Part shown: positions 1,831 through 35,180 of the stretch, piece after piece
How positions within the stretch are numbered: position 1 is the stretch's first letter
How the letters are laid out: each line of letters opens with the position of its first letter
Source: Armillaria gallica
Lineage: Eukaryota > Basidiomycota > Agaricomycetes > Agaricales > Physalacriaceae
NCBI GenBank assembly: GCA_037576215.1
Contig: JBANDB010000001.1
Span: 5,022,001 to 5,086,000, forward strand
Direction: 5' to 3'
DNA: 64,000 nt
Translations under genes and position numbers: made by a program
The notes under the pieces: model-generated
What the model saw: only the letters and a program-made list of their open reading frames with translations
Told to the model about the DNA's origin: nothing
Databases searched by the model: none

Positions 1831-1962
1831 TAATGAGTTTTCTCAGCAGTGTTACTATATATATTGCTTACTCATTTGGTTGTAAATCAGCAAATAATCA
1901 TTCTATATCTAAATAATATATAATATGTTACAAGTTAAATAAATATCTTTTAAACTGAATCT

Positions 1963-7040: not shown

Positions 7041-7376
7041 TTACATCATAATTGATTCCATCTCTTTGTTGCCGTTGTCCTGGAACTCTGCTCTCTTTCT
7101 TTGCCTGTCCATATCCTCTGTTTCCATTTCATCATCTGTAATGTACGCTAACTTGCGCTTGACCGCTCTCCTTCCTGTTACGCTTTCCCATGTTTTCGAC
7201 ACCGTTTTGGCTGCCTCGGCCTGATTTGCTGCCTTGGTTTCACCGCCTGGTTAGATCTTCATATCAATACGAAAGTGCTAATTGCTCACCTGTGTGAAGT
7301 CCCTGTCTATGAGCGCCACTGCCCTGAGAATTGGTTTCAGTCTGAACGTCGTTTTCTTCCCTCTAACGATCGCCAC
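7041..7376 (-). pseudogene. Gene A' 3' part, split by the hAT-bounded insertion
   Basis: Read on the minus strand, this holds the end of exon 4 (VAIVRGKKTTFRLKPILRAV, then ALIDRDFTQ), a short intron starting GTGAGC at about 7296, and a last exon rich in Lys/Arg/Glu ending at TAA (7041-7043). It is the direct continuation of the sequence beginning at 34871: the reading frame passes from one side of the 27.5-kb segment to the other through the duplicated 8 bp ATCGCCAC (7369-7376). The block aligns with exon 4 of intact gene A at 8459-8605 (IVKGKGMKHRMKLVLQAIALLD). The family is uncharacterised. Confidence 0.8.
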
Positions 7377-7959
7377 TAGGGCTGCGCGCTGTAGCTGTAT
7401 AGTACGGTTATCGGTAACCATGATACGGTATATGGCCCAAATCCAAGAGCACCAAAATGGCTCTTCATACGGAACGGTATATGGCGATTCCATCACCATC
7501 ATGGGTCCTCAGGTACGGCCGTCCAATGGCATAATACAGCTTACTGTTGCATGTATGCAAAACAGCCAGACCACAATGCCCATCTCTCCCATTTCGAATC
7601 TGTTCCATCTCTGTAGCTTCCCAGTCAATGTCGCTTGCATTCTCTAGCCATCTGCTGGCACATGAACCATTCCAACCCATTTTATTATGCTCAGACAGTT
7701 GCTAAAGTCATTGAAATTTACTGACACTTGTATCTTCTCGTGTTCCAATTCCTCCTGGGATATGGCTGACCAGCTAGCATGTAAAAGATGGAAAGGTAGC
7801 TGTTTTCTCTATCCTTTGTTCACGATCCGTGATACAAATTGACTCTGACATATTTAATCCTACATGTACGTTCGTAAACGGCCGTCGACGGCCGTAAAGT
7901 ATCCGTACCGATGCCGACAAGGCTTGAGATTTCAGTTGACAGTACAGTATACGGATGTT

Positions 7960-8092
7960 CCGAGTCCTATATGTATATATAGGTATTACTCGGTCCTTAT
8001 ACTGGATTATACCATGGGATTGATCCTATTCGGAAGTTGCCGATTGCCTGTGGAGAAATATCATGGGAACTTTTGAGCTCGTCCATCAAAAG
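7960..8092. repeat. 3'-flank repeat shared with 6742-6880
   Basis: The block starts with a palindromic core, CCGAGTCCTAT followed by TATAGG and ATTACTCGGTC, and ends with CATGGGAACTTTTG and CGTCCATCA. The copy at 6742-6880 has CCAAGTCCTAT, ATAGGAATTACTCGGTC and CATGGGAAATTTTG with CGTCCATCA. Each copy lies about 160 bp beyond the stop codon of a gene-A family member, so flank and gene were copied together. Confidence 0.65.
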
Positions 8093-8252
8093 TCTGGGAA
8101 GTCTCTTCCTCTTCCGTTCGGTTACACGTCATCTTTTCCTTGTTTTCTTCTCTGCTTTCTTCTTCGTCTGTTGTTGATTTCATCCTCTTTTCTATCTTTG
8201 TACTATCGCTATTCTCTGTCTACGTGATTTACTGACCTCCTTCTCGCCTTCT

Positions 8253-9582
8253 TTAACCACTTTCATCCATGTGCTGACTTTCTCTAGCCCTTTTGTGCGT
8301 CGTTTCTCCGACTTCTTTGTCTTCCAAGTAACCTACTTTTGGCTTCAGACGTCTTGTCTTGCTTTCGTCAGTCATGCGGATCTTGCTCATCTGGCACTTC
8401 GCCTCCTTTCTTTATGGTGAGCATTTTGTTTGCCTCTTGAACGTGTGGTCCACTCACCAGTGCTATCTCGCAGTCCAGCAGCGCTATTGCCTGCAACACT
8501 AGCTTCATCCTGTGCTTCATTCCTTTCCCTTTGACGATGATCACCGAGCATTGCACCTCTACGATGTCCCCGACTCTGAACAGCTGTGGCCGGGCCTGTT
8601 GGTATCTGTTTCAAACATCAGTTTGCTTTTCTGTTTATCCAGGTGTGTGGACATGCCGTCGCTTTCCATCCTTGTCAACACTGCTCTTAAAATATTGAAC
8701 TTCATTTTCTTCAGTGTGGATGAGGTCGTTCCTTGCCAGCCGTTGAAGAATTCTGACTGGATCAATGTCTTTGGAGAAGGGCACCTCTTCTTGATGGGCT
8801 CCGTCTTTTATAGTGCGAAAGTATCTGTTAGAGAGCATGAACACTGGAAACCCATGGTATGTTCCCGTATTCCATTTCTCCAGCATGCCGTTTTTGAACT
8901 CCCTTTCCGCCGTCAGCCTGATCTCTTGCAATGTCGATATGGTGTCCTCGAAACTTTGACAACCAAGTCCTGTCACCGTCACACTCTGCGCCATCGTGAA
9001 TGCATTATCTCGTGCGCCGCTGTTTAAGGATATTCAGTCTTCGGTGCGGCACTACCATGAAACGTGCTTACCTGGGTGACCTGATGACTGGAGGCAGATC
9101 AGCGTCTCCTATCACTCCATTACATGCAAACACCATCTCTTCCATCTCGTCGTCTCCTTGCTTCTTCACTAGGCGCCATACATGTTCATCATCATCTTTT
9201 TGGAGCACAACGTCGCCCATCTCCGTGCCTCTCTGAATATGTTCTTGTTGGTCACTCTCAGTTTCGATATCAATATTGTTGCTTACTTTCAGTATTCCGG
9301 ACAGATGTAGTGGGTTCGTCTTCATACTGTTCTCCATATGAGTTTGAAGCACAGCTTCTGCGATTCGGTCAGTGTTTTGGATGTTTGTTTTAAATAAATT
9401 GACTCACTGGCTTTTGCATAGTCGTAGAACTCGTCCATCGATATTCGCGGTGCACTTGGGGCCAATGGGGTGGGGGCTAGGATCGCTGGTTTTATCCTGG
9501 TCATACCTCTTCTCTTACTATTTCCCTCTATTATCCCGATCTGATCGTGCAGAGATGGGGGATCTGTTTTCCTTCCTGGCAT
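8253..9582 (-). CDS. Gene A: uncharacterised agaric protein, intact, 5 exons
   Basis: Exons are 9582-9408, 9357-9072, 9019-8657, 8605-8459 and 8406-8253. They sum to 1125 nt, or 374 residues, with no internal stop. The start MPGRKTDPPS lies in the only upstream ATG-led exon. The product is hydrophilic with acidic stretches, then a conserved tail: SNRYFRTI, then FSKDIDPVRIL, then HTEENEVQYFKSSV, then RPQLFRVGDIVEVQ, then LVLQAIALLD, and a basic end. The third intron uses a GC donor (gcatgt), where the paralogue A' has GTGAGT. I recognise the tail as a recurrent agaric family of unknown function, often seen near genes like B; that context is recalled, not checked. No transmembrane segment or catalytic motif is visible. 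It is divergent from gene B with 587 bp between starts. Confidence 0.75.
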
Positions 9583-10169
9583 CTGGCGTCAATGACTAGT
9601 CTGTTTGATGGCCGTGTTGACAGGTCCCTTTGCTTGTGTTCTTGCCGTCATCATCCTCCCTCCTCCCCTGAGACTTTTTTAGTGTCTTGTTTTGCCTTTC
9701 TTCCTTCATTTGGCCTCGTTTGCCGGTGTCAGATACCGGTGTTGGATCCATCCGTTCTCTTGGCCCCGTTGCTTTGTTCCTATTACATTCTTTTCGCTCT
9801 TGGGCTTTACTCATTCCCATCTTGCATATATCATGGGGATGCATTTGTGGTTAATGGACTATGTGTGGCATTCATTTCCATTCTGTCCCTCATTTTTTTT
9901 CCCTCCTTGCCGCCGCCTCCTTTCTCGGTGGTCTGCAATATAGTTTAACTAGTTTCTATGTTTATTTTGGCTAGCTTCTTTGACTGTCTATTGCGTGTAA
10001 TGTACTTGATCCCCGTGTATTGTTTATCGCTTCTTTTATTTTGATATTGTTTTGATTATTAGTGCTCGGTTACCCCCTCATCCAGACGTATTTATATGTC
10101 GCTCTTCCGTCGTCTCCCTTCCCATCCCACTTTGTTGCTTCTCTGCTCGCTATCAATTCAGTCCTAGCA
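9583..10169. promoter_or_regulatory. Shared upstream region of divergent genes A and B
   Basis: These 587 bp separate the start codons of A (minus) and B (plus). The plus strand is rich in C/T runs, as is common in fungal promoters. I see no strong TATA box at either end and no tandem repeats. A bidirectional promoter is inferred only from the arrangement. Confidence 0.4.
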
Positions 10170-13100
10170 ATGCCTTCTCGGTGCGTTGTCGTGATGCTGT
10201 CTTGGCGTTCGAGTTCCGACTCGTTTACCTTCTGCAGTAATCTATCTAAATGCAAACAAATTGACTCCTCGCCCATTCCTGCCTCCTCGCCTGAGACTCA
10301 AAGGTCCGCGATTCCTCACACTCACGTGTATTGCCTCTCATCGTTGTTGTTTTCTTTCAGTGTCCCACGCAAGCGAAACAAAACTGCTGCTCCTGTCACT
10401 CCCGTCCCTAAGTATGTGTGACAATCGTCATGTCATGTTCATTTTTTCTTATTGACACGTTGCATAACTTGTAGGTCTGGAAAGTCCACAGCTACGGCGG
10501 CTTCTTCCAAGTCATCTCACGCTTTGTTGCCTGCAGTGTCTATCACGTATGTCCCTTTTCTGCACTGTATTCCCTAACTTCACTGTTGACGTCCACCAAG
10601 ATCATGTCAGACTCGATGTGCCGCTTCGTCTTGCAAGGTGTCCTACGGCGACTTGTCTGAGGAGGAGGTCGAGAGTGTCGCCCAGCAATCCAATGTCACC
10701 GATTCAGAGCTGTCGGCCCATTCTCTTCGTCGCCGTGGTCGCGTCCTTTTCATAGATGATGAAGCATCAGAAGGGTCGGGAAAATCCACTACAGGGTCCA
10801 ATGCTGATGAAGAGGCCGGCATTGAGGATATTGCGGAGTGCGTATTTATTATCGTGTCTGTCGTGTGATTCGCTAAATTTTCTTTTTATTCTAGGTCAGA
10901 CTCGAGTTCTGTCGGCGACACTGCTATTTCGGGTACCCAGTCTCAATCTGCCGTTGTCCGCGATTCTGAGTCTGAATCTGTTGGTGACACTGTTGAACTT
11001 GCCGTTGTCCAAGGCCGTTCTTCGTGCGTAGCTGTATCTCCATGTTCTTTACATTTGTTGACGTGGTGCAGAAGGATCAAAACCAAAACTCCCAAAGGTG
11101 CCTACATCGACTCTATGTCAGCTCATTCCTTTCTCGATATATATTTTATTTTTATTTTTACTGCCCAGGTTGAGCTCTGGTAAGGAGGCCAACATTGCTG
11201 ATGACGACGACACCAAGAAGGATCCAACCATTCCAGCGTACGTCTGCGACCGTTTTCCTCTGTGTTCTGCACTCAGTGTCCTTTCAGTCACACCTCCCGC
11301 AGCAAGAAACCTGACATGCAGGTTTATCTAGAGGATCTGGAAACCCTGAGGCCCCCCACTCGCATGAAAAGCAAGTCTCCCGTCAAGCCTTCTACCACTG
11401 CTAGTTCCTGCAAGTCAAAGGCTGCGAAGGCTGTCGAGAACAACCATCGTCTTCAAGTGGAGGTGTCCGTAGACCCTGTCTCCAACTCTATTTCCAAGAC
11501 TGTCACTCTGTCACTGTCCCCATCAAAACCGAGGAATAAAATAATTACCTCTGGTATGTGTTTTCTTGCGCCTTTCTCGTTCATGACCTGATATCCCTTC
11601 TTACAGTGGCGTCTGACGATGTGGTCGACATCCCTTCTCCATCTGCTGGATCCACATGCCGCTCTTCGAAGAAAGAAGCCATTGTCATCGACAGTAGCAA
11701 AAGTGACGGTGAAGGCGATGATCGTTCTGCAGACACTGCTTCTGCTAAACCTTTGAAATCTGCTGGATCAAAATCTGACAAGGTCTCTGGATCTGGCAGG
11801 TCGAGAGCCCCCAAAAAGCCCCCAGTTAAACCCGCTTTAAAATCCAAATCTGGCAGGGACCTTTCACCAGAAAGAACGGGCAAGGCGAAAGGGAAGGGTA
11901 AGGGTAAGGGCAAGGCGACCGAGCCTTTGTTTTGTTCATCTGGTACCGCTCTGTTTTCCTTCCTTTGATACTTTATCTGCCTTGCTGATTATGGTTACTT
12001 TAGACAAAGATGCTCCCCCCTCTCCTTCGACTTCTATTCCACCTTCCTCTCAGGTTGCTAATCAGCTTACAGCTCTTCTCGGGTGCGTGTTTCCACATAT
12101 TCCTTCGTGTTATCCTTTCTGATGTGTGTTTTTGTCTCTTAGGGACAATCTACTCCACTCCCAGTCTCCTGAAGTGGATGCAGATGCTCCTGTTTCTCGT
12201 TTACCTGATACCGTTTTGTACATGTTAGTTCGACCTCGTCCTTTGCATCCCTGATTGTTTTTTTTTGTGGGGGTTTTTCAAGGTCGACTTCCGATGTAGA
12301 TTTGTCTGAGCCTGCAGATCTGACTCTTCGCATCATGCAGCCTCATCTCATGGAAGAACATCTTGTTACACTTGGAGCGTATCTCGAGTTGCCTCCTCTC
12401 GGGTGAGTGACCGTTCATCCTGTTTTACTGTGCCATGCATTGATGATCAACCGTAGATACTACCGGATTGTTGTTCCTGTCGGCTACCCGCCCGATAACT
12501 TTGATGCCCCTCCTTTCCATTCTTTTGACGTCGTTTCTAAGTTGTTCCACATAGAGAGCTTGACGTGAGTTTCTTCATCAGCATTGGGCTCATTTGCTGA
12601 TTGTTTTCCCTAGGTCGCTACTGGAATATTTCAAGTGGACATCATATGGTAACTATGTCAATCTCAGATGCATGGCATATTCGATTCTCTCTCTAGAAGG
12701 GAGGACTGTTCGCATGGGCGACTCTCTGGCGGTGTGCATGACAGTTGGTCTTGTGACTGAATGTATGTTGTTCCAGCCTGCCACCCAGAGTGGTTTCAGT
12801 GGTAACACGGGAAAGTGTGCACGTCATCTCCGTATCATGCCATTCCACCAATGGTTCCATCGTGAGTCGACCATGTGGGGCTTGTTGCTCGGTTTGGACT
12901 TCACAGAGACCACCTGCCTCTCAGAACGGGGCGTGTCTTTTCCTACAAGAGTCGAGGATCCGACTGGACATGGAAACAAGAACTCAATGTGTCTGTATCC
13001 AGTCCGTCTTCTCCCAGCTTATTCTGACTTGTGTTGTTCTTCCAGATTCCAGCAGTCAGTCTTCTCTGGCTAAAGGTGGTCGCTGGAGAACACCGGTTAA

Positions 13101-13496
13101 GAATGTCTCTGCGGCGACAGTGTCTTCAGGAGGGGGCTATCCTTCTTCTTTAGGCTTTGGGGACAAAGGTATGAACCCCCTTTAACTCTAAATGCATCAC
13201 TGTCTTAAGTCTATCATCCGCTTCATTTACTAGTTCCAATATATGATGGACACTCTTCTGCCGGTCAACATTTCTTATTCTGTCCGTCTGACTTCGCTTC
13301 TCTCAAATCGCTACCCCGCTACACAACTTCCCACAATTTGGACGCTTTCACTTTGGTGTCCGTCGGATATTCGCTTTCAGTTTGGGCCAGTAGCTACAAC
13401 AACAAACCCCGTCTTACTCCAAATATCCTGTTCGTTATCGTCTTAGGATCTGCTCCCAAGAAAAACGTGCTTGTCACACAGTGTTTGTTACAATGA
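10170..13496 (+). CDS. Gene B: Ser/Lys-rich multi-exon agaric protein
   Basis: I read at least ten exons. The first is tiny (MPSR, 10170-10180), followed after about 180 bp by VPRKRNKTAAPVTPVPK. A long low-complexity part follows, rich in Ser, Asp, Lys and Pro (10.6-11.95 kb), with a KGKGKGKGK run at about 11.9 kb that looks nuclear or nucleic-acid binding. The C-terminal half (12.3-13.5 kb) is folded-looking: YYRIVVPVGYPP, then YFKWTSYGNYVNL, then PRLTPNILFVIVLG near the end, stopping at TGA 13494-13496. I recall this architecture as a repeated agaric family without known function. The intron near 12.99-13.05 kb does not join in frame with a standard donor, so the gene may carry one defect. 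Confidence 0.55.
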
Positions 13497-13898
13497 GTTC
13501 ACGTTTCTATGCTAGTCTTTACAATCATAGTTATCATATCGTAGGGTGTTAAGTCGTGTGCGTACCATGGTCCATAGGGTATTCTTTTATGTACTTGGCA
13601 GTAGTAAATGAATATTCCCTTCTCAGATCTTTCCTGTCTGAAGCCAATGTGAAGAGAACGTGTGTGTGATCTTCCACTGGAACGTCTTGATTGTATGGTG
13701 CCATTTGTATCTCATTGGTGTTGTTTTTCTTTTTCTTTTGGTATCTGGTCTTCTTTCTTGATTTACATCTGTCTTCGTACCAATTGCTCACATCCGTTCT
13801 GCCCTGACTAGTGTTGAATTAGCTGTTCGGGTCCTTGCCCCTCAGTTTTGCTTAAATATGGCTCGCCTTTGCTTTTCGTGCCTTGTTGAACTCTTTCT

Positions 13899-15793
13899 AT
13901 GGCTTACTACAATCTGACTGACATTCCCGTATGTTTCTTCGTATTGTGCTTCTGATGCTATATTTATACTGTCTTCGCACAGTTCGACGACTCTTTGGAG
14001 GATCGTATCATTGATGAGATCGATACCTACAATGATGGGCTGGACGACATGAGACTGCTGGATCGTATAGATGATGATATGTGCCTTCGTTTGTTTTCCT
14101 TTCTATCTTTTTGTTTTTCTGACAACTCTCCAGGCGATCATCTCTATTATCGTTATATGGAACAGCTCACCCATGTCGGTCGTCCCTCTAATAGCACGCT
14201 TTACTGTTCCCTCTTCGAAGGCTATCATTATCTCATCTCGGATGCCCCCACTTACATCGATCCACTCCTCCAGTACTACATCCCCAATGTTGATTGTCGT
14301 CCATCCCTCCGTGACCCTAACTACCTACCTGCTGAAATGTGGACCAAGGTGTTTTTGTTGTTACCCAGAGATGAATTGCCAGTGTTGCGGCTGGTCTGCA
14401 TCTTCTGGAACAATGTCTCCAGTCGCCTGGTTTTCACTTCAGTTCACCTGCAGCTCCCTTTTGCTTGGCAGCTGTCCTCGAGGTCTGAGGTTTACAGACA
14501 TCTCGCTAACAGGTCTGAGGTAGGGCTGGTTTTATTTGCGGCTCGTAACAATCTCAGCAATGTCATTCAGTCCATCACGTTCTCGAATTGGGCCTTCACT
14601 CCTTATTGCTTCTTTTTGCATTCATTCACCAATGTTCGCACCGTCCGGTTCCTTGCTGATGCCGGTACACCTGCAACCACCCCTCACATCCCGTATCCTT
14701 ACCTTCTCCCATCCACTGTGACTCATCTTGTCATCAGTCGTTGTTCTTTAGAGGGTCATAGTGTCAAAGGGATGCTCTCCCCCGATACTTCTTTGGAAAG
14801 TTTGGAGCTTCGAGGTTTAGAACATGGCGCCATGGTATGTTGTTTTATTTGTTGGTACCCGATTCCTTTGCTCATACTCTATCTTTGTTCAGTATCTTCC
14901 CCCGGTTCCCAGTCCTATGGAGGTAGTTACATGGTGATCTCTCACTGGGGTTGAAGGATTTTGTGCTTCCTGTCTAGATCACCCCCCTCTCCCTACGCTT
15001 AGACAGCTTTGCATCGACTACTCTCGGAACTCCATCTTCCGCATTTTGTATCCCAACGATCCCATGTCTTCCCTGGGTTTGGCTGCAGCTATGCTGCGGC
15101 AACTCTTTCGTGACCAATCGTTTCAGGCTGACATTGCCCCTATGCTGTTACCCACGCAGCATTTTCCCATCGTCCTTTGCTGCAACATGTTGACATACCT
15201 GGATATCGCTGTGGCTCACAACCTGTTCCATGTTTTGTCTGGAGTATTGGAGGACGTCCAATTCTCTCTCCGGGTCCTTATTCTTCGCTACCGTGCGTAT
15301 ATTTTGTTTTCATTATCGGTTGTCTCTTACCCAACACCCATTGTCTATAGCAGCCTGCATTTTTTGCTCGAATTCTTCCCAGACACACGTGTCTTTGGCT
15401 GCATTGCTTTCCCTCCATAGCTTAACGATCCACACCAGTCCACGTTTTTGGCATTGCTCCATGCGATCCACCTTCACGTGGGCTTCTCTCCCAAGGACTT
15501 TGGAATCATCAGAGCTGCGTATGATCATCGATTATGAAGGCGACGACCTTGTTCTTTGTACTAACATGCGCTGTGCTCATCTGGAGAATATGCTTCGGGG
15601 ACCGGACGATTCTGGTCTCCAATTGCAGTGGGTCCCATTTCGTGGCGAGTTCAGTCTTCAATTGGTTATGCAGGAGCATATGACCTTTCCATGCCATGAT
15701 TATGAAGTCTCAACTAGGTTGTTGGATGAGGTATCTCAGAGTCCACTTGTACCAGCCATCATGCTCCCTGTCGAGGTCATAATGCAAGCTTAG
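13899..15793 (+). pseudogene. Gene D: F-box-like protein, first of three paralogues
   Basis: Exons are 13899-13928, 13983-14076, 14134-14834, 14893-15292 and 15351-15793, 1668 nt in the same phases as gene F. Exon 2 is acidic (LEDRIIDEIDTYNDG). Exon 3 carries the F-box-like part (YLPAEMWTKVFLLLPRDELP, then VLRLVCIFWNNV), and the rest reads like leucine-rich-repeat sequence. Two defects are visible. The second intron's donor is AT (atatgt at 14077) where F and E have GT; retention would add 57 nt in frame. A TGA at 14935-14937 stands where F has Arg (WRSL versus W-stop-SL), as expected from CGA to TGA. F-box proteins recruit substrates to SCF ubiquitin ligases; that role is inferred from the family. 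Confidence 0.7.
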
Positions 15794-17626
15794 TTTAATA
15801 TGCCTACCTTTTATTATTTCATCTTGGTCATGTTCACTCGGTTTATCTTGCACTTTAATATTCATTTTGATCACATATTCTTCTTGGTCTTTGTATTTAA
15901 GCTGGTCTGTTCTTGCAGGCGCTTAATCTTCCTATGCTAAAGGTCGGATACTTTCTGGTTACGTGTGCATACTCGACGATATCAAGTGACGCCACATATC
16001 TCGGCCATTTGAAGGGCACTTTGTTAACTGAGTCGGTATCAGCACTCGCGTGCCTGGATGTTATATTAGGCCAGATCTGACCAAGAGTCACTTCAACGAC
16101 ACTTCCCCATTTCACGGCTGCATGCGGCAACCTGCATATTCGGCTCGTTCACGGGTCATCTGAATGAGTTGTGTTTTGCATCGTGTCCGTGGTTCATTCC
16201 TGTACTAGCAGATGCCAGATAGTCGTGTCACGCGAGCTAAAAATTGAGGGTAGGAATTTCACTTTGGCTGTGTAGGTTCCACCGACCTTCCGTCGGAACA
16301 TCACGAAGCCTGAGCAGAAGCGGGAGAAGAGTCGCACCTAGACATGCCAGTGTGCCACACTGTCAATGCGCCCTGCTCATCTACACTTGATTCTGCTCAG
16401 TATGGGTATCGTGGGCAGATATGACATTGTTTTCATGCAGTTCTGCTCTCATGGCTGGTCTCGAAGTTTGGCGAATGCCGTCGCGGAGTAATTTACCAAT
16501 TGGACACGGCACGCCACATTGTCAACGCGCTCGTGGAGTAGCTAGATGTGGCTTTGCGCAAGACAGAACCCAAGGGCGATTATTATGCCGTGCCAATGCG
16601 GTTAAGGTTGTCTCCGTGGCTTGGCGAATGGTACCAAGTTTCCGATTGGACACAGTGTGCCACGTCGTCAACACGCTCGTGGAGCAGCTAGATGTGGCTT
16701 TGCGCAAGACAGAAGTCGAGGGTGATTATTACACCAAGCTAATACAGTTAAGGTTGCCACCGATTCTTGGCGAGCGGGAGAAGGATTCCAGTTGGCATCG
16801 CGCCGCATTTGTAGAGTAGCGAGACATGTCCTTGTGCATTACAGAAGGCATGGGTGAACATTGCGCTAAGTCCCTTCCTCCGAGTGAGCATACACATGTT
16901 TAGCTGGCCCAAATTCTTCTCTTCAAGGGTTGCCCTGTTTCATCATATTCTGAATTCATGTTAGCAATTGTTAGTGGTCAACCTGCTATTATCACATGCT
17001 CAAAATCCGTATTCAGTACACGTCACACACGTGCTCCTTTTTTTGACATGTTAGTCTCTTTCGCACTCCTCCTGTCCCTGCTTGACTACAACACTACTCT
17101 ATTCTGGGGAGGGGGAAGGTCATATTTGCTCTATTCTTGTGCCTTATTTCGGGCACGTTGGCTTGGCCATCGATAAGCTCAGGAAATTGCTCGGTTGTAC
17201 ATTTTTGTTGGCGAATTTAATTACTGGCTGACTTGCCATTTCCTCCTCCCTTCAGTTACTTGGCATTCGTACCTCGTCCAGACTCTGTTTGAGCGGCATT
17301 GTGCTTATCGATGATGTATTTGAATCTTGATCTCACTATGTCCACCTGCCCTACAAACTTCATTAGCCTGCGCCTTGAACTGGTGCCATGATGTCGTGTA
17401 ATGACACACCAACATCTCTTTGACGTAAATATCGTAGCCTGATCTCATTGTGTGTGGACTGTACGGGGTCTACCGCAACCTCAACTTCATACCATCATGT
17501 TTCTATCCGATCCCTCGTGCCCTTTGTGAATTCATCATCACATCATTGCATACTCTCACCCACTTCAACTTGCACTTGCAACCTTTATTCTGGTTTCGTC
17601 TCTTTGTCTGATTGTGCGTGCCAACA
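15794..17626. other. Intergenic region between D and E
   Basis: No gene is recognised. The region contains a diverged tandem repeat array (16.27-16.87 kb, listed separately). The remainder (15.8-16.25 and 16.9-17.6 kb) shows only short frames and pyrimidine-rich sequence on the plus strand. Confidence 0.5.
16270..16870. repeat. Diverged tandem repeat, period about 146 bp
   Basis: The sequence GGACACGGCACGCCACATTG at 16502 recurs as GGACACAGTGTGCCACGTCG at 16648. Both continue through GTGGAGYAGCTAGATGTGGC and TTTGCGCAAGACAGAA. More degenerate copies lie before (CAGTGTGCCACACTGTCAAT near 16349) and after (GTAGAGTAGCGAGACATG near 16815). I estimate about four units. No protein function is evident. 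Confidence 0.65.
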
Positions 17627-22616: not shown

Positions 22617-23033
22617 TCCCCCACCGTGCTTATCAATTGCTCTATACCTACTTATTTCTTGACGTCTCTATTTGTCTCGCATACACATAATACTTATCAG
22701 TAGGCTATAGCTCTATACCTGCTTATTTCTTGATCTCTGCTTGTCTCATTAATATAATTACATTCAAACAGCATGCTAAAGCGTACAAGATCGTTCCTCT
22801 TATCTATCACTATCGTCTCCGTCGATGATAACTATGCCATGGTTGAACGCAGGTCCCGTTGAACACTGCTTCATGCGTCAACGGCGATTCTGGCACAATT
22901 CTTGGGGGGGGGTGGATTGTCGTGTGCCAATGAAAGTGACTTCTTCCACACAGGACAACCTAAATACAGTATTAGAAAAAAACAGTAGAACAATTCATCG
23001 CATACAACACGTGTAAGAACTGATTATGCACAT
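22617..23033. other. Convergent 3' intergenic region of F and G
   Basis: This separates the 3' ends of F (plus) and G (minus). It holds two copies of CTATACCTRCTTATTTCTTG about 70 bp apart (near 22643 and 22713). No gene is seen. Confidence 0.5.
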
Positions 23034-24617: not shown

Positions 24618-25293
24618 TTTGTTAAGTTCTATAACTGATGGCAGTTCCTATAAATCACATCATATCAGCACATACTTATATGATACCACGAACGGTACCT
24701 ACCTTTGTGAATTATCGTGAAATACTTAGTATGAAGAGAATAAGTACAAGGTGATCCATACATAGCCTGATACCCGGGGCGGGGGTCCTCACGAATTTTC
24801 GAACTCCGCAGGGATGCCGGACTGATGCAGAATTTCATGCCGTTCATTATCGTTTCTCATTCTTCCCCATGACTCCTTCCCCCTCCATGGCTACCAGCAG
24901 ACAGGCCCCTAAAATATGTACTTGTTTTCTCCCCCCTATCCATGTTCAAAGAAGTTCTCACTGTCTCTCATTCTCCCAGTGAAAAGGCAAAGGGCGCACT
25001 CACAGTGGCCAAATGCCTTTCCCCCACCGAAAACATGCCTGGTGCCCGGTCCAGGGTATATACCGTCTCGATATCCACTGTGTTGGGGTTGCACGCTCAG
25101 ACACGTCGTCGGCATATCAGAAGAAGGTGTTGCAGAAAGAAATTTATGCTGCCCATACTCACGCTCTTGATGTCTGCTGATATCTTTTTAAAGACGAGAA
25201 CCTTCCATGTGCGGTGCATATGCCTATTTTTCTTCTATGTTCGGAGAGATGGTTTACTTCTTTCAATAGCCGCTGTAATCCACTGTCAGTGTC
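24618..25293. other. Intergenic region upstream of G
   Basis: No gene is recognised. The plus-strand frames at 24.9-25.2 kb are short and lack a family signature. Confidence 0.4.
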
Positions 25294-27180
25294 ATGGTTG
25301 AGGAGCTCAAAGCCCGCAAATCATCAACACGTACTGATAAAGAGGCCCGTCGCAGAGCAGCAATCATGGACCAAGCTCTGTCTTCTACAATACGCCATAT
25401 ATATGATCCAGGACGACTCCAGGGAGCCTCAAACTCTGGTAGCATACTTTAGTAGCCATCCTGATCCTGATGGTGTGGAGGTCCATGATGGCTTCAAGGT
25501 CGGCCTTTCAGTGTCGCGTCTTCACCTGCTTACACGTTTCAGGATTTTAACTTGTGCCTGTTGGCGTCACCCAGCAAACTATCAGCGAGCTGTCTATCAA
25601 GTCACCAGTGGTGGGTGGGGACAAACGACATTTGTCCACCGCTGTGTTTCCATTCATGGATTATGACCTTGAAAAGTTGAATGGAGAGATAGATTGTATG
25701 TACTGCCGTCGTTGTGTGCGCCCTATACTCGTGTTTTCGATCTAGTTAGCATGCACTGAGTCAGTCGGCATTCGTCATGACTGCGAGTGCTGGTTTTAGC
25801 AAGGGGTAACAGTCCTACTTCATTGCTAACCATTTACTTCTCGCCTGATCATCCTTCAGCATAGCAACCCTATCCCTCTGCTGTCAGACTTCTGTACCAT
25901 TCTATGAGTGAATGGCTTCCAGGGAACATATCCGAAGGCGGCGCTTGCATGCTGGGTCATATGTCTTGGGTTCGTTTTATGCATAAAAAGGTGGTGGAAT
26001 GGATGAAGGGAACTGGTTCATACCCAATTGTTATACTGGAGATCTTTTACTATACTTGTTCGTTCCCTCCGCCCATCATGAAATTATGCACTGGATTCTT
26101 GATGTAATCTCCTCGGTCGAGTGGGTTGCCATGTGCCGGTCTCACATGAGTCCATGTTGGCCTTTGCCACGTCAGCGGTTCTTCCTCCTCCCTTTGCACT
26201 TTCCACATATCATGTTTATCCTTGGGCTTATCATGATGCATTATCTTTTCTTCGTTGTTGCATTCTTTATTTCCTGAGTGAACGTTAATCGTCCTCAGGT
26301 CGTGGCTGTCTGTCGCTCCGCTTTATGCGTCGAGCCCCTCCTCCCTGAAGTATCTGTAGGTTATCTTGTTCTTACCTGGGATCTACTGTGGGTTCACCCC
26401 TTCTTCAGAACGCTTCCTCCATTCTTCATGTATCCTCGCCGGTGACCGGTCTCTCGACTTCTGGAGTTGTGCATAGCACGGTGAGCTTTCAAATTCTCAT
26501 TTGGTTGTGCGCATGTTCTCAGTATCGTATCTGCAGCTCTCACCTTTTACGTCCATCTATAATCTCTATCATGTATCCCATTGCTCGAACCTTACTTTGG
26601 TGAGGAAGCCACTCCAGCATCAGTTACCTACTCGCTTATGCTCTCAGTCTTCGATTCAGTGCGCCTTTTCGTCCTCTGTGTCTCACCTGTTACAGTGTTC
26701 TGACATATGGGTACGTGGACTATGTGAATCATTTTGTACCTATGCTAACCTTGATCTGGCTATCAGAAAAATACTGGCTGTTGCTCCTCTGTTGCAGTTG
26801 ATTCGCTCTCTGTGTCTGGTAAGTGTCCGTTTGCTAGAATGGCCTGGATGAATCTGACGGTAAAGCCATAGGTTTTTCTGACGTATACACCATGTCTTTA
26901 TATCTCATACCATTCGCCAAACATATGGGAACGGATTATCTGGAACGCGTACACACCAGAAATATGGGTGTTGCACCGCTGTCTAGAATTAGACTTTGTC
27001 TTTTTGGACCAACTTTGTATGCCCTTCTATTGGGTACATTTCTGCCGAGTTCCATTGAACATGTCCATTACCTCGATACATGTATTCTTTTGTCGTCTTA
27101 TGTGACCACTGGTCTTGGAGTTGTAGTATGCTTTTGCTTTGTCTTTTTCATACAATGGTTTGTTTGATATGCTCGTGTGA
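25294..27180 (+). pseudogene. Gene C: decayed multi-exon agaric protein
   Basis: The plus strand starts MVEELKARKSSTRTDKEARR at 25294. A frame change near 25430 leads into TLVAYFSSHPDPDGVEVHDG. Further on, LGHMSWVRFMHKKVVEWMKG (to about 26015) must change frame to continue as FIPNCYTGDLLLYLFVPSAH, then HEIMHWILDVISSVEWVAMC. Later pieces up to about 27.18 kb are coding-like but I cannot join them. I recall similar blocks in agaric proteins of unknown function. At least two frameshifts make this a likely pseudogene. It ends where the AT-rich Helitron begins. Confidence 0.45.
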
Positions 27181-27308
27181 ACATGTACGACAGTACTGCT
27201 GTCAATAATATTGTTGACGACTTTGATTTTTGTGGGCCATCCATCCGAGGCTCGCACGAGGGTGGTAGTGGTATACAGTACGTTGATTATGTGACTGTAA
27301 GTGCGTAG

Positions 27309-30300
27309 CTCCCAGTTTCTGATGTACCATTTGAGACCTTGCAAAATACATATCATTATAGTTTTGTTGATCATCATACAAATGAGGCTGAGTTGCATAA
27401 GCCTTTGGCTGATAATCTGATATTGACTAAAGTACCTTTGTCTGTTATATGCAAGTATGTTCCATTAAAGACACTTAAATCATTGGCCAAGCTACACACT
27501 GTTGGTATTAAAGGCCTATCCTATATGAATAAAGCTGCAATAGTTACTTTGTTCAGTACCCATGACTGCAAACATTGCATGAACTCTGTCACAGTTTTAA
27601 AACAGCATGTTATGTTTGGAAGTCAACCTGTGCCTACAAAGCAGGGATTTGCAGGACCAGGTTCATTATGTGAACCGATTTCTTTGGAATTTCCACCTAA
27701 GCCACTAGATGAGAAGCTTTCTCATACGATCATTTCTGATTTCTGTGCTGCTTCAGCTCCAGAAGAGTTTAAAGAGGCTGGATGTGCAGTCTGTGGTCAG
27801 CTAATTCTGCTGAAAAAATTAAGTAGCATACGGCACATGAAACATTTTTTACATATTTTGGAAAACCCTTCTGCAACTCGTAAAGAGAGATACCATGAAA
27901 CTGATCCAGTGACACATCTTGATGGTCCTGTGCTTGACACATCCACTGATTTTATATGCTTGTCCTGTCGTGCTTCAGTGCGGAAAGGTATCATATCTCC
28001 AAATGCATTATGTAATGGCCTTTGGCTTGGAGCTATCCCTAAGGTATTGAGTGAGCTGTCCTTTGTAGAGCGTTTGTTGGTATCACGCATACGACATAAC
28101 AGTTGCTTTGTAAAGGTTGCTATGGCTTCAAGTGGATATCCTGAGCTTGGAAGCCAAAAGATGATATCTCATGTTATATCGTTTGAGTCACCACTTGCAA
28201 GAATATATGATATACTCCCTCCTCCAAAGAAAGATATTGATGAAGTGTTGGCTATCTTATTTACTGGGCCCAATAAACCCACTGATGAAGATCTAAAACG
28301 AACCCCATTACTGGTGCGGCATAATGTTGTATTCAATGCATTGTCCTGGTTATGTAATAATCATACTGATTATCAACATGTCAAAATTTCCAAAGCAAAT
28401 CTTAATGAATACAAAGAAAATGAGACTCCTGTTGATATTATTTATTAGCATAGTCTCTCTAATAAAGTACCAGAAGGAACAAGTGTCTTTGATATGACAG
28501 AAGCTGATGGTACAGATAATGGTATATGTCCAATTGTTGTTCATAGTATAGTTGGTGAACAACTGCCTATGACCGATATTAAAACTCAAAAAAGCATTGC
28601 TACTCAACATTTTAAAAATGATAATGGAGTACTTGCTATTGGACATGCTGAGCATCCTGAATCTATTTATAATAATCCCACATTATACCCATCAATGTTT
28701 CCATGGTTATTTCCCTATGGATTGGGAGGTGTTGGTTTAACACATCTGTCAGATACTGCACATAAAAAATGGTTAATGATGTATCATGATAAACGTTTTC
28801 AAACTGATGTTGGGTTTCCATTTGTGGCATTCAGTCATGAACAAATAAAGGCAAGTACAACTGCAGGTTATCTCTTAGTTAAAAAAGATAAATTCCATCA
28901 TATTGCTGATCGTATATTACGATTAGATGAGAATATTCTTGATTCATTATCTGCATGACTTAGTAGTGGAGAATCAGTGAAAACTGTGACTCCAGCTGAA
29001 AAGGATTGCTTTCAGTTATTTAATGATCTAGATCATGTTTCTTATAAAGTCCAAGGATCACTTACATCAAAAAAGTATATGCGCAATGAAGTTTACTCAC
29101 TGATGGCAGCAGAAGGTGCCCCTTCATGGTATATCACATTTGCACCATCTGATCATAAGCATCCAATTTCATTATATTGGGCTGATAAAGAAATTGAGTT
29201 TTCTCCAGTTTTACGGACTGAGCGAGAACGATTACTTTTAGTGACTGGAAATCCTGCTGCTGCTGCTAGGTTCTTTAATTTTATGGTTAATTTATTTATT
29301 AAATATGTTTTACGTCCAGATCAAGAACAGCCAGGTGCATATGGAAATGTCTCATCATATTATGGAGCAGTTGAGCAACAAGGTAGACTTACATTACATT
29401 TACACTTAATTGCTTGGATTAGAAGTAGTCTGAGCCCACAAGAAATATGTGACCGGCTGTTAAACAATGACTCTGAATTTCAAAAGCAGTTTATAGCATA
29501 TCTTGAAGCTGCACATACTGGTGACTACTTTACTGGATCAAGTCTTGAGGTGATCCAGATGCGTCATGAGGAGAGTTTATTATCTACATATCAGGATCCT
29601 ACAGAAACACTGCCTGTTCCACCTCCTGTGTTATGTCAATGCGACTCTAATGATTGCACAAAGTGTGAACAAACAACATCATGGTGGATTTATTTCAAAA
29701 GGACAGTAGATTGTCTATTAAACATGGTTAATGTACATTCATGTCATCAGAATACTTATGCAGATGGAACATTAAAAAACACCTCAACAGCAAAAGGTTG
29801 TAAAGATAATAAATGGGGAAAATGTAGAGGCCGATTTCCACAGCCATTGTTTAAAGAAACAGTTGTAGAATCTGAGACTGCACATATAAATATGAAAAAA
29901 CGCGAAGCTTGAATTAATACATTTACACCTATATTGACTTATTTGCTTAGATGTAATACAGATGTGACTTCTCTATGGTCAGGCACTGCTATAAAAGCAG
30001 TATTGATTTATGTAAGTGATTATATTACTAAACCTGCATTGAAAACTCATGTCTTTTTTGATGTAATCAAAAGTGTGTTTCAGCATAGTAAAGATCATCT
30101 TGTTAATGGTAAAGGTGAAAAGGATCAAGCAAGAAAACTTATGACACAAATGGTAAATGTATTAGGAGCAAAAATGGAAATAGGTGCACCTATGATATGC
30201 TCATATCTGCTGGGTTTACCTGATCACTATACAAATCGCACCTTTGTTACTTTTTACTGGAAGTCATTTGTATCTGAAGCTAAAAATGACTGGAAACATG

Positions 30301-33300
30301 AGGGTGAACCTTTAGAAGAAGTGAAGATACAAATAAAAAAACAAGACAATAAAATAGTCGGTGTCTCTCCAGTTGAAGACTATATGAACCAACCTGTAGA
30401 GCTTGAATCTATGTGTCTATATGAATGGATATGCCGATGTGAGTGTGTGTCTAATCGCAAATCATCTACAGATTCAGATCATTTCAAAGGCCCCTTAAAT
30501 ACTCATGAAAATGAAAATGAATCAGATTTAGCTTTACTAGAAGAACAAGGAGATAGTTGTTTATCTGACACTGGTGATATGCAAGAATATTCAGATAATG
30601 ATGAGATTGACTCTATGAAGGACTTTATTGAGAAAGATAGTTCAGTATCTGATGATGAAAACAGTGAATATATTAACACAGAGTTAAAACAGGTTTTTAA
30701 CACTTATTCTAACTCTCAAAAGACTATGGTGAATAGTCAAGAGCATGAACAGGTTGATATCACATCAACTCAGTCAACTGATGCTACTCTTATAAATGAG
30801 GATATTACTCTTGATAATAAGTCTGTTCGTGGTCACCATACTAAAATATTGAAGTATAAATTTTTAAATAAACATCCTCTTTATGATACACATTATATGT
30901 CTGTACGTCCTGAAACTGAACGGCATATTCCTAATTTTGTTGGTGGTTTATTACCAAGACATAATGTAGGTGATCGAGAGTACTATTGTATTACAATGTT
31001 AGTATTATTTAAACCTTGGCGTCAAGGTAAAGATTTAAAGTCTATTGATGCTACATGGGATGCAGCTTTCACTTCATTTGAACTTGTATCATGGCAGAAA
31101 AGGCTGATTACATATTTTAATCTGCGGTATGAATGTCTTGATGCTAAGGATGACTATAATGCTCACACTGTATGATGGCTTTGATATGTAAGGCTGAAAT
31201 ATTGATATTGAAAAATATTTATTTTTAGCCAGTTTTTAGCTTAAAATATCAAAGAGATATGCACAATATCTTTTCCATATTTGTGATTTTATCCAGTTTT
31301 GAGATGATTTTCACAAATATAGAAAAGATATTATGCATATTTCTTTGATATTTTAAACTAAAACTAGCTAAAAATAAATAACTTTCAATTTCAATATTTC
31401 AGCCTCACATATCAAAGCCATCATGCAGTGTCAGTTAAAACAAGGTGGTGCTGAACTTATTCAAAAGTTTGATACAAATTGGACAGCATTAGATTATAAT
31501 AATGATCTATTTATTTCAAGTGAAGAGATTGAAACTGGTATATCATCTGAAATTGGTGCTATTAGTAGACATTTGGAAACTGGTCATGTTAAACGCATGC
31601 AAAAAATTACAAAAATAAATTGTATGATGAGTGAAGCTGGATGCAGTTGGTCACAGCCTCAGCCTGAACTTGCAGATACAACAAATATAATAAATACTAG
31701 TCCTCCTCAATATCAAACAGCTGCAGAGTGGAGAGAGGAAGTACAGCACATACGACAGGCAGTATTAGATGGACGAACTAGTGAACAAGGCAAATCAAAT
31801 GTATCAAAGCACATGCTTCCATCTAAGCATATTGATCAAGCAGAAATTACATATCAAAGCCATTTGAATCAACAGACATCTAATAATACAGTATCAGATG
31901 TTATACAGCATGTCAAAGTATTATTTAAACTCAATAAGGAACAAGATCGAGCCTTCTCTATTGTGGCTCGATATGCAATGTCTCCAATATCTGAGCAGCT
32001 TTGGATGTATATTGGTGGAATGGGAGGAACTGGTAAATCACAAGTATTGAAGGCATTAACTGAGTTTTTCAGACTTAGAAATGAAAGTGCACGTCTGGTA
32101 TGAGTTGCTCCAACAGGTACTGCTGCTTCAATTATTAAAGGATCCACATATCATTTTATGTTTGGCATTAATGAATTTGCAGGTAGCAGTATTAGTAAAA
32201 AAAAGTCTGGGTGAAGTGAAAGCAAGATTATCAGGTGTTGAATATGTATTTCTTGATGAAGTTTCTATGCTTTCTTGTACAGATTTATATAAAATAAGTG
32301 ATCGTCTAGCTGCATGTCTTAATAGATCAGATTTACCATTTAGCAGTATGAATATGATATTTGCAGGGGATTTTGCTCAGCTTCCACCTGTGATTGGTGG
32401 AGAAAACTCTGCATTATACTCACCTGCACATGATATGTATGCTTCTAGTAAAAAAACACAAGATGCAGCACTTGGTAAAGCTATATGGCATCAGGTAACT
32501 ACTGTAGTCATATTACGGCAAAATATGCATCAAAGCACACAATCAGAAGGAGACAGTAAGCTAAGAACTGCATTAGCAAATATGAGATATAAAGCCTGTA
32601 CAAAAGATGATATTGCATTTTTAAATTCATGTGTATGTAAGTTATCTGATTCTGCTCCAGATATTACTAGTCAAAAATATAGAAATGTATCTATTATTAC
32701 TGGTCTAAATATTCATAAGGATGCATTCAATCAACTAGGCACCATACGTTTTGCTCAGGAAACAGATCAAGAGCTTACTCATTTTTTCTCTGATGACAAT
32801 ATATCTGAGTCTGTTGATATTGTTCATGCAAAGTATGCAAAGCAAAAAAAGACAACTATTCTATCTCCTCAAATTCAAATTGAGCTATGGAACACTTATC
32901 CTAGTATGAATAATAAACATATACCTGGAAAGTTATCATTATGTAAAGGATTATCTGTTATGATTAGATTGAATTCTGCTACTGAGTTAGGCATCACAAA
33001 AGGACAAGAGGCAACAGTATATGATTGGGAGGAGGGTACAGGTTCTCGTGGACAAAAAATATTAGATACACTCTTTGTTAAACTAAATTCACCACCAGAA
33101 ACAATTTGTATACCTGGATTACCAAAGAATGTTGTACCTCTTTTACGTACATCAACTTCTATAACATGTATGTTGCAAGATGATTCTAGAATCAACATTA
33201 ACCACAGTAAGGTAGAAATCATAACTAATTTTGCAATGACCAACTACTGTTCACAAGGAAAAACAAGACCAATTAACCCTGTTTACTTAAATAATTGTTG

Positions 33301-34720
33301 ATCACATCAATCATATTATACTGTGTTGTCCTGAAGTGCATCATGTGATGGAACTCTAATCTTACCAGATTTTACTGATCGTAACAGAGTTGCTTTTGAT
33401 CCAAAGAAAATACAAGGCATGTGTTCTGGCCATCTACGACAAGAATTTCGAGAATTGGAGTTGTTAGATCATATCACTACTTTATTATATGAAAAAAAAC
33501 TCCCTGATTCTGTTTGTGGTGATCGTCGATATACATTAATTGAGTCTTTTCAATCAGCATTTGGTAATGATTTTGTACCTGACATAGTTGAATCTTCAAT
33601 TAGATGGTCTAAATCAGATCTGCTACATATTATAGATCAAGATGACTTTAAATGGGATACAAAAAATCATACACATTTTCCTATACAAAATATATCAAAA
33701 ATACAATCTAAACATATAAATACTCCAGCAATGACATGCATTAATTTGCCAAGTTCAGTTAAAGTACAAGACAGAATATTTACACCTATGAAACCTTCAA
33801 TAAAAAGAAAAGGCAGAGTATCTGATACTGAAATGACTTATTCAGATGACAAGCTACAATTAAAACAAAATCCACATACTACAGTAATGTCTGAAGTAAC
33901 ATCTTCCTCTTTAGAAAGTATTATACCTCAAGGTTGTCGTTGGTATAATAACAGCTGTGCCTATGATGCAATCGTGTTTATTCTGTATAATATATGGGCA
34001 TCTGATGTTGATTACTTTTCAATCAAATTCAGAGAACTGAACTCTGAATGGCTAGGATTGATGTCTGATTCATTTAAAAAGCATATAAATAAACAATATA
34101 GTCTTGAACAGATTCAGGATTATATTCGCCACAGATTATGCAATGTATATCCTGATCATTTTAAATTTGGGGCTAATGCTAGTGTTGAAGGTGTATTTAG
34201 TAAGATATTTACTGGATCTACTGTATTTAATAAAGTGTATCGCACTTGCTCCAATGGACATCAAACACATATAATAGAAAGTTACAACTGTTCCTTTTAT
34301 CCAGGAGGGACAGGAGAGTTACAGTGGACCACAATTCAGGATTTTTTCAATATCTGCAATAACAGACCTGTATCTCAAAAGTGTAATGTGTGTGGTTGCA
34401 ATATGAAAAAAATAGATATGCTGATGTATGCACCTGGTATGATTGCTGTAGTTGTCTCACGGACAGCTATACCTGCTGATCATACACTTCATATAAACAT
34501 TAATGAGAATGCCACTCAGTATATACTTTGTGGGATTATCTATTTTGGAGAAAACCATTTTACAGCTCGATACATAGATAATACTCAAACTGTATGGTTC
34601 AATGATGGTATAGAAACTGGTAGAAGGGCCATTTCAGAGGGTGATATCTTCAATATTGACATGAGCAAAGCACCAGATGATCGGAACACTGAGATATATA
34701 TATATACTCTAATTCATTGA
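27309..34720 (+). pseudogene. Helitron Rep-helicase with C-terminal cysteine-protease-like domain
   Basis: One long plus-strand coding unit is broken by stops and a MITE. In order: an N-terminal Zn-finger-like region (CKHCMN, CAVCGQ, CLSCRA); the Rep domain with HUH motif (GRLTLHLHLIAWI, about 29390-29425) and the two-tyrosine motif (YVSDYITK, about 30010); then the helicase with Walker A (GGMGGTGKSQ, about 32020), Walker B (VFLDEVSML), FAGDFAQLPPV and the final motif (YCSQGKTRP, about 33245). From about 33.9 kb a domain with RWYNNSCAYDAIVFILYNIW, HFTARYI and WFNDG suggests a USP/OTU-type thiol protease with Cys, His and Asp. Stops are TAG 28447-28449 and TGA near 28957, 29910, 32101, 33299 and 33332; a frameshift lies at an A run near 32197-32204. 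Confidence 0.85.
31166..31430. repeat. MITE, CACTGCATG family, copy 2, inside the Helitron gene
   Basis: This 265-bp element has inverted ends CACTGTATGATGGCTTTGAT and CACTGCATGATGGCTTTGAT, extending about 60 bp. It is flanked by TCA on both sides (31163-31165 and 31431-31433). One TCA plus the flanks gives an uninterrupted reading (DDYNA followed by QLKQGGAEL), so the insertion is precise. Size, end sequence, internal AATATT motifs and TNA target match the element at 1568-1830. Confidence 0.85.
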
Positions 34721-34756
34721 CTATAGTACTTTAATTCTTGATAAAAATTATAGACT

Positions 34757-34870
34757 ATAGGACTCGGTAATGCCACGCGAATGTGATGGCCCTCAAAAGC
34801 TAGTTTCCGTAGCCGACTGAGACTGCGACTTTACGGCCGTATACCGTATACGGTACGGTGCGCAGCCCTA
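34757..34870. repeat. hAT right arm; related block at 36024-36071
   Basis: The arm starts ATAGGACTCGGTAATGCCAC and ends at the terminus GCGCAGCCCTA. It contains TACGGCCGTATACCG. Its first 48 bp recur at 36024-36071 (ATAGGACTCGGATCTGCCAC, about 40 of 48 matching). Its ATAGGACTCGG and TTTACGGCCGT motifs recur at the same spacing, inverted, at 7862-7970. The 36 kb copy lies outside the 27.5-kb segment, so this element family is present more than once. Confidence 0.6.
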
Positions 34871-35180
34871 ATCGCCACGGTAAACGATATCTCTACTATG
34901 TCGCCGTTTCGGAATGTCTGCGGTTTCGCTCGGTTATATCTGTACGTGTTACTCTTCGAACACCTAAATCACAATGATACTCACCTTCTTCGGCCATCAT
35001 TGGACACGCTGCTTCTGAAGTACTGCACGGCGTTCTCCTCCGTGTGCGCCAGATCTGTTCTGACCATCCCTGCCAATATGCCTTTCGGGTCGACGTCCTT
35101 AGGGAATGGGATACCCACATCGCCTTCCTCGTTGCCTATCCGTCTGAAGTATCTGTTCGTGCACTCACTGAACTCGGGCG
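34871..35180 (-). pseudogene. Gene A' 5' part, split by the insertion
   Basis: The minus strand reads CTNRYFRRIGNEEGDVGIPF, then PKDVDPKGIL, then HTEENAVQYFRSSVSNDGRR. An intron with donor GTGAGT follows (acceptor ACGTACAG), then KPQTFRNGDIVEISF up to 34871. This parallels gene A exon by exon. Exon 4 continues at 7376. The upstream exons are missing: at about 35180 the sequence changes to a GH10 xylanase fragment on the opposite strand. Confidence 0.8.

Follow-up and report, generated by a model that had tools for sequence, protein, structure and literature searches.

A giant Helitron with F-box genes nested in a short hAT element of Armillaria gallica

The Starships of filamentous ascomycetes are giant elements with recurrent cargo and a tyrosine recombinase. 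The element described here, a 26,846-bp Helitron of the basidiomycete Armillaria gallica, is likewise a fungal giant with recurrent cargo, and its enzyme is a Rep/helicase (a recombinase was not searched for). It lies in a 64,000-bp stretch of contig C1 (C1:5022001-5086000), hereafter the window, and was compared with matches from the whole genome (86.0 Mb; 28 contigs, numbered C1, C2, C4 and so on, with fetched loci numbered L0xx), for which all match counts are lower bounds.

According to the consulted sections of PMC4289320, the HELPO1 Helitrons of Pleurotus ostreatus insert at AT, have CTRR ends and carry 'cap' genes, some of which have no copies outside Helitrons, and capB has a match in Armillaria mellea. 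They are 1.5–13.7 kb long, and in the autonomous ones the cap genes lie downstream of the Rep/helicase gene (RepHel). Both HELPO1 and the window element are basidiomycete Helitrons with passenger genes, but here the size reaches 26.8 kb and the cargo is upstream, and the Results section of PMC4289320 names no F-box gene. In the excerpts available, the Helitron2 group (PMC3627910) and the FoHeli elements of Fusarium (PMC5148889) have asymmetric terminal inverted repeats and a 5' hairpin, and FoHeli elements are about 5–11 kb long with a TC/TTC ambiguity at the 5' end (PMC5148889). The window element shares the asymmetric repeats and 5' hairpin with both, and the TC/TTC ambiguity with FoHeli, but differs in its canonical-type CTAG 3' end, its A/G^T target and its F-box cargo. 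The part of PMC4905642 consulted describes no Helitron-borne F-box gene, and neither F-box Helitrons nor giant Armillaria Helitrons were described in the titles and abstract openings found, most subscription journals lying outside the search.

A preliminary description of the window, made from its letters alone, reported a 27.5-kb segment (7369..34878) with hAT ends and a perfect target duplication that splits a gene, and offered two readings, a giant hAT or a small hAT inflated by later insertions. This interpretation is partly supported. We consider it very probable that the segment is part of a nest of three elements, in which an outer short Helitron contains a hAT and the hAT contains the giant Helitron, and that the latter belongs to a clade of Rep-bearing Helitrons that tend to carry F-box genes.

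Ends and genes of the giant Helitron

The giant Helitron (7958..34803, +) is inserted at G^T within the hAT; its ends were aligned with those of other copies, and its site is uninterrupted in 21 of 33 fetched hAT loci. It begins TTCCGAG and ends CTAG, and the family end pattern is TTCC(G/A)AGTCCTAT...CTAG. The terminal inverted repeats are asymmetric, with CCGAGTCCTATA at the 5' end (7958..7993, +) and TATAGGACTCGG at a distance of 36 bp from the 3' terminus (34756..34803, +), a region that also holds a weak hairpin and the terminal CTAG. The 5' repeat lies within a hairpin of -9.4 kcal/mol (z -5.2) that was matched by none of 200 shuffles. These termini recur elsewhere in the genome, the first 140–160 bp at eight fetched places and the last ~50 bp at seven. 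Nine 5' ends gave the consensus TTC(C/T)(G/A)AGTC(C/T)TAT, the start of which (TTCC) can be read as TC or TTC. Among eight 3' ends, CTAG occurs in seven and CTGG in one, and a T follows in all eight right flanks. The final base of the left flank is A in 8/9 copies and G in the window copy, as it also is in L034. Genome searches found 20 copies of a 27-base 5' pattern (up to 3 mismatches) and 33 of a 31-base 3' pattern, with none for either reversed control, while a looser 14-base 5' pattern (up to 1 mismatch) gave 256 copies against 47 when reversed.

Two uninterrupted sites lack any duplication other than a T, and this T can be counted as part of the element. A Helentron-like T^T insertion was considered and rejected, as these two sites and ten left flanks better match A/G^T; nor is the Helitron2-group target TTTT^T/C (TT for Helentrons) matched. 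The Rep/helicase and the absence of a duplication suggest rolling-circle transposition.

The segment had been credited with at least six genes, and this is about right: the Helitron carries an A-type gene, four F-box genes and a RepHel with a protease domain. The A-type gene (8449..8805, -) comes first in the cargo, on the opposite strand and 491 bp in from the 5' end, and neither of its two visible exons matches a Pfam family. F-box gene A (13956..15306, +; PF00646, E 2.2e-4) has several exons, and its limits, like those of the next two genes, are approximate. F-box gene B (18112..19604, +; PF12937, E 5.1e-7) and F-box gene C (20873..22616, +; F-box E 1.3e-3, below the Pfam cut-off) are conserved in two further giants, on C1 and C2, in which F-box gene D (23034..24647, -; F-box-like E 1.9e-3, also below cut-off) was not found. 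RepHel (27309..33301, +) encodes DUF6570, the Helitron_like_N (Rep) domain (PF14214, E 1.2e-24) and a PIF1 helicase (PF05970, E 1.3e-7). In-frame stops, changes of frame and a small insertion break up its coding sequence and, read without introns, the gene looks dead; the same kind of reading shows a broken RepHel in each of the three giants. Ten other open reading frames of the window were compared with Pfam, and eight had no family; searches with Rfam and for tRNA gave no matches.

Protein searches, which find only relatives with shared short exact words, returned five proteins for F-box D (those named being from Armillaria borealis and, weakly, Mycena floridula) and two for the F-box gene of an element on C5 (Armillaria luteobubalina and Desarmillaria tabescens). 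In the C2 giant, two fragments were scanned for F-box domains, one giving no Pfam match and the other a match below cut-off.

The last domain, C-terminal to the helicase (33335..34717, +), had no Pfam match and none in a PDB sequence search. It has 244 homologues, and among the 120 listed, two contain PF15499, which we take to be Peptidase C98, and eight the PF05970 helicase; the best named match of the Helitron C-terminal protein is Armillaria gallica P0002 (95% over 53% of the query). An AlphaFold2 model built from 49 sequences had a mean predicted local distance difference test score (pLDDT) of 78.6, mostly >90 for residues 200–461 and <50 for 99–192. Human USPL1 (7zju) ranked first in the PDB by fold (E 2.5e-11, template modelling score 0.35/0.57, 13% identity), other ubiquitin-specific proteases (USPs) were close behind, and W203, S207 and C208 of the Cys box are invariant across the 49 aligned sequences. 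The model thus clearly predicts a USP-fold cysteine protease, the target of which would be SUMO or ubiquitin, between which the fold does not separate. A homologue of this domain (P0003) and one of F-box D (P0124) each come from a 12,541-bp contig, possibly the same one, which may represent a Helitron in another genome.

Within RepHel lies a 265-bp insert (31166..31430) with CACTG...CAGTG ends and a 3-bp TCA duplication, which forms a fourth level. It has dozens of copies in the genome, about 90–97% alike among those listed, and the corresponding point of the C1 and C2 giants lacks it. Other features of the cargo include a plus-strand pyrimidine bias at 7958-22700 (A/T skew mostly -0.2 to -0.38), which the C1 and C2 giants also show over their F-box part and which changes at F-box D and RepHel, and a 146-bp tandem duplication (78% identity) at 16490-16781.

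Conservation of the cargo and its association with Rep genes

Two of the 12 other fetched loci with the family 5' end are giants with both ends mapped, C1:7519862 (17.71 kb) and C2:1400750 (22.06 kb), the latter containing an inserted reverse-transcriptase reading frame (PF00078). Both share F-box B, F-box C, RepHel and the protease domain with the window element, in the same order and strand, which implies that their divergence postdates the arrival of the genes on the element.

Codon differences between the window element and these two giants are concentrated at third positions. In blocks chosen by protein similarity, differences at positions 1, 2 and 3 were 0.23–0.41, 0.16–0.27 and 0.53–0.62 for the F-box genes, and 0.18–0.22, 0.07–0.12 and 0.46–0.49 for RepHel. 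Because choosing blocks by protein similarity could bias this result, the comparison was repeated on DNA-chosen alignments, which gave 0.22–0.32, 0.14–0.20 and 0.51–0.58 for F-box, and 0.19–0.20, 0.11 and 0.47–0.48 for RepHel. Ratios of non-synonymous to synonymous change (dN/dS, NG86) were 0.07–0.16 where computable, being undefined in three of ten comparisons (dS saturated), and saturation of synonymous sites makes them rough. In shifted frames, pN/pS was 0.92–2.51.

Could the cargo genes be mere passengers, kept by co-amplification without selection for function? RepHel is interrupted in each of the three mapped giants and several F-box blocks now contain stops, as this view would have it, yet third-position differences exceed second-position differences 2.1–3.7-fold in the F-box genes, with RepHel alike, on both protein- and DNA-chosen alignments, and the bias disappears in shifted frames. 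We consider the passenger explanation unlikely. The F-box genes had already joined the element when the three compared giants split, and have been under coding constraint since.

The cargo is also tied by position to one group of Reps. A search with the F-box B protein found 39 matches, three of them in the window, and a Rep search found 36, representing 34 loci (two loci with two matches each). Of the F-box homologues, 32/39 lie 4–26 kb upstream of a Rep on the same strand, an arrangement expected for 0.6% each, and the other seven have no Rep within 30 kb. Eighteen Rep loci, counting that of the window and one match of partial coverage, are at least 52% identical to the window Rep, a line chosen after the list was seen. 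Related F-box genes occur upstream on the same strand within 32 kb of 14 of these close Reps, and an A-type gene upstream on the opposite strand within 40 kb, beyond the F-box genes, of 13; 16 have one or both types of cargo. Among the 16 more distant Reps, none has the F-box genes and two have the A-type gene. F-box D relatives occur ~5–7 kb upstream of two distant Reps (C2:6835297 and C2:6006681), and others on C3 and C7 adjoin F-box or helicase pieces.

The A-type exon gave 53 matches, 16 of them within 40 kb of a Rep. By the nearest-Rep rule, 14 of the 16 are upstream on the opposite strand, two upstream on the same strand and none downstream. Over the span with a complete list of 5' ends (C1–C3, and C4 to 4.1 Mb), a family 5' end lies no more than 2 kb from the 3' side of ten of the 15 A matches, in every case on the opposite strand, where 0.6% would be expected for each. 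The layout common to the clade tends to be a 5' end, an A gene oriented backwards, up to three F-box genes, a RepHel with USP-fold protease, and a 3' end. On C19, the order of the F-box genes is roughly A, B, C, and two opposed F-box Helitron loci, C19:1310108 (-) and C19:1360312 (+), lie 50 kb apart with identical F-box and A scores, as would result either from an inverted duplication of recent date or from the assembly.

Gene capture is a known property of Helitrons, and the association might have arisen by their repeatedly landing in, or capturing, host F-box genes. The outer Helitron of the window holds a xylanase fragment that looks captured, and cargo is missing at ten of the 12 other fetched loci with these ends. 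Repeated capture sits poorly, however, with the 32 of 39 homologues found upstream of a Rep on its strand (the other seven being Rep-less within 30 kb), with the consistent side and strand at 14 Rep loci, and with the order B, C, RepHel shared by three giants and the approximate order A, B, C on C19. We judge it improbable.

The hAT copy and the probable outer Helitron

The ends of the 27.5-kb segment are as first described. The 11-bp TAGGGCTGCGC occurs exactly at 7377-7387 (+) and 34860-34870 (-), an inverted pair identical at 11/11 bp, and the 8-bp ATCGCCAC exactly at both flanks (7369..7376 and 34871..34878), with 27,494 bp between. By itself the 11-mer pair is weak evidence: with one mismatch allowed, the window should contain 0.51 matches by expectation, two or more occurred in 9/100 shuffles, and exact matches across the genome number 84 against 53 for the reversed pattern as control. 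The 8-bp duplications are decisive for identifying the ends as hAT. Among 16 facing-end pairs fetched, 12 have an exact 8-bp duplication, two a 7/8 match and two none. Two pairs are 4.5 kb apart, most other hAT relatives measure 0.5–0.9 kb, and a reading frame of one 4.5-kb member (L010) contains a Dimer_Tnp_hAT domain (PF05699, E 6e-8).

Where the cargo begins and ends, the hAT is continuous in its relatives. A 165-bp sequence across the joint 7957/34804 aligns gap-free with the two 4.5-kb elements at 90–92% identity, and the closest hAT copies read GGATGTTTCCG at this point. By ungapped scoring over 112 bases in 33 distinct fetched hAT loci, 21 scored 78–103 of 112, so that the hAT is continuous across 7957|34804 in these. 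The remaining 12, which include a 531-bp subfamily, scored 44–51, similar to four unrelated loci (45–46), and either belong to a part of the family without this segment or were fetched partially. It follows that the window hAT is a 648-bp copy and not a 27.5-kb element, with a left part at 7377..7957 (+) and a right part with the right terminal repeat at 34804..34870 (+). With its TAGGG ends, 8-bp duplications and a 4.5-kb relative with Dimer_Tnp_hAT, it is like other non-autonomous elements of the hAT superfamily, and ordinary except for the Helitron within. Another hAT of the same family, in L034 (879-2676), has a 1.8-kb Helitron inside with a TTCCGAGTCCTATG end; the insertion point differs from that in the window, where the hAT is uninterrupted at the corresponding place.

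The second reading offered at the outset, a small hAT inflated by insertions, is supported, but in a simpler form: one Helitron supplies all 26.8 kb, and the 265-bp insert and the extra F-box gene D are changes inside it. Not visible from the letters alone were the places where the Helitron begins and ends, the rank of gene A as the first gene of its cargo, and the position of A' in an apparent outer Helitron. A series of unrelated insertions, in which only the 7-kb RepHel part would be Helitron, might account for the lower G+C of RepHel (~0.34, against 0.46 in the cargo) and for the absence of F-box D and the 265-bp insert from both compared giants. It is nevertheless very improbable, for the family 5' end at 7958 sits exactly on the hAT break with the 3' end on its other side, and the same succession of F-box B, F-box C and RepHel is found in the C1 and C2 giants, which occupy unrelated sites. 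A single 27.5-kb hAT that moved at least six genes as a unit, to which the perfect terminal repeats and 8-bp duplication had pointed, is scarcely credible and was rejected: its relatives are 4.5 kb (two) or mostly 0.5–0.9 kb long, 21 of 33 loci are continuous where the cargo starts and stops, the cargo is not continuous with hAT sequence, and its own internal Helitron ends, which occur at other loci without this hAT, place it at one distinct internal point of a short element, an arrangement named beforehand as refuting a giant hAT.

Reading through the two flanks joins them into one minus-strand exon, as had been proposed. The gene that is split (A') seems to be itself a passenger. Its upstream exon lies at 34984..35139 (-), and the first half of the next exon (34879..34938, -) is cut by the hAT from its second half (7281..7376, -). 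The same exon had been thought intact in gene A; a related exon does exist (8452-8604, -), but it belongs to a diverged paralogue (49% identity over 51 aa) and lies inside the segment. The upstream exon of A' is 75% identical to an A gene at C19:1580358 and 71% to one at C4:1713663, both beside F-box cargo.

From its ends, the sequence around A' appears to be a short Helitron (6740..36070, +; TTCCAAGTCCTATG...GCTAG, at A^T), 1,829 bp long when the hAT and one target copy are subtracted. Its 5' end at 6740 reads TTCCAAGTCCTATGAATATAGG...ACTCGG, with the flank ATAA and a hairpin of -4.2 kcal/mol (energy alone), and its 3' end (36026-36070) reads ...GCTAG followed by T. At 90% identity, its last 93 bp match C19:1603208-1603300 and C4:1726885-1726977, which lie downstream of the same C19 and C4 F-box loci. 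The element also carries a fragment of a GH10 xylanase gene (35164..35875, +; PF00331, E 2.1e-12), which is 85% identical to C17:1837728-1838442 and was probably captured. That the hAT had split an ordinary host gene was considered, and dropped once the family 5' end at 6740 and the 3' end at 36070 were found.

Elsewhere in the window, the first 5 kb (1-5000) are A+T-rich (G+C 0.28–0.37) with minus-strand reading frames, one of which weakly matches DUF6535 (E 0.0099, below cut-off). At 40353-60434, copies of a short sequence or gene are dispersed in an array that comprises several direct families and inverted pairs, and a GNAT acetyltransferase gene is present at 56834-57457 (PF13302, E 1.2e-10).

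Proposed history and significance

Besides the saturation of synonymous sites and the late choice of the 52% line, a number of observations weigh against the nest and clade as we describe them. The sequence of the 3' hairpin is conserved, but shuffles fold equally well (z +0.34 and -0.64). For the outer Helitron, no empty site was seen, and a less strict 5' motif has one further match, at 14906, where no hairpin-like sequence follows. Ten of the 12 other fetched loci with the family 5' end show no F-box or RepHel similarity to the window element; five of these (L034, L042, L043, L044 and L046) are short, 1.8–5.2 kb, and presumably non-autonomous, and the others (L045, L047, L053, L054/L055 and L056) were examined over 10–20 kb, some of the loci being only partly fetched. 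Neither type of cargo accompanies two of the 18 close Reps, and 37/53 A-type matches are more than 40 kb from any Rep. A 14.0-kb element at C4:1712931-1726977 has a 5' end, an A gene, an F-box gene and a 3' end, but no Rep was found in it and its recognition is based on the pattern and DNA matches, while the C5 element has a 5' end and no 3' end within the 2 kb fetched. The gene-by-gene comparison with both ends mapped covers three giants (window, C1 and C2), and at other loci the association of cargo with Rep is one of position and strand.

The nest would have been built from the outside inwards. In a first step, a 1.83-kb non-autonomous Helitron with an A-type gene and a xylanase fragment would have entered at A^T. 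A 648-bp non-autonomous hAT would then have landed in an exon of the A-type gene, with an 8-bp duplication, followed by entry of the 26.8-kb Helitron into the hAT at G^T without target duplication. The CACTG-ended 265-bp insert would have arrived last, after the giant Helitron.

For the cargo, we propose from its domains a role in the ubiquitin/SUMO system. The F-box proteins, as substrate receptors of SCF complexes, together with a protease acting on ubiquitin or SUMO, may act on a host factor by which the element is limited or silenced, altering the stability or modification of that factor.

The locus also gives two cautions for the annotation of such regions. Terminal repeats with a perfect duplication can mimic a giant transposon when another element sits inside, and a 'host gene' split by a transposon may itself be mobile.

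Most of what is known of Helitron cargo concerns captured genes and fragments of genes. A wider reading, which we offer tentatively and for which the balance falls somewhat short of even, is that Armillaria has a clade of giant (~14–27 kb) Helitrons in which an upstream F-box array, an A-type gene and a USP-fold protease are under selection, giving the element a ubiquitin/SUMO toolkit of its own, probably directed against host control, and making it the Helitron counterpart of the cargo-bearing giant elements of other fungi. The recurrence of the F-box genes, on a fixed side and strand and under constraint, makes the existence of functional Helitron accessory genes directly testable.

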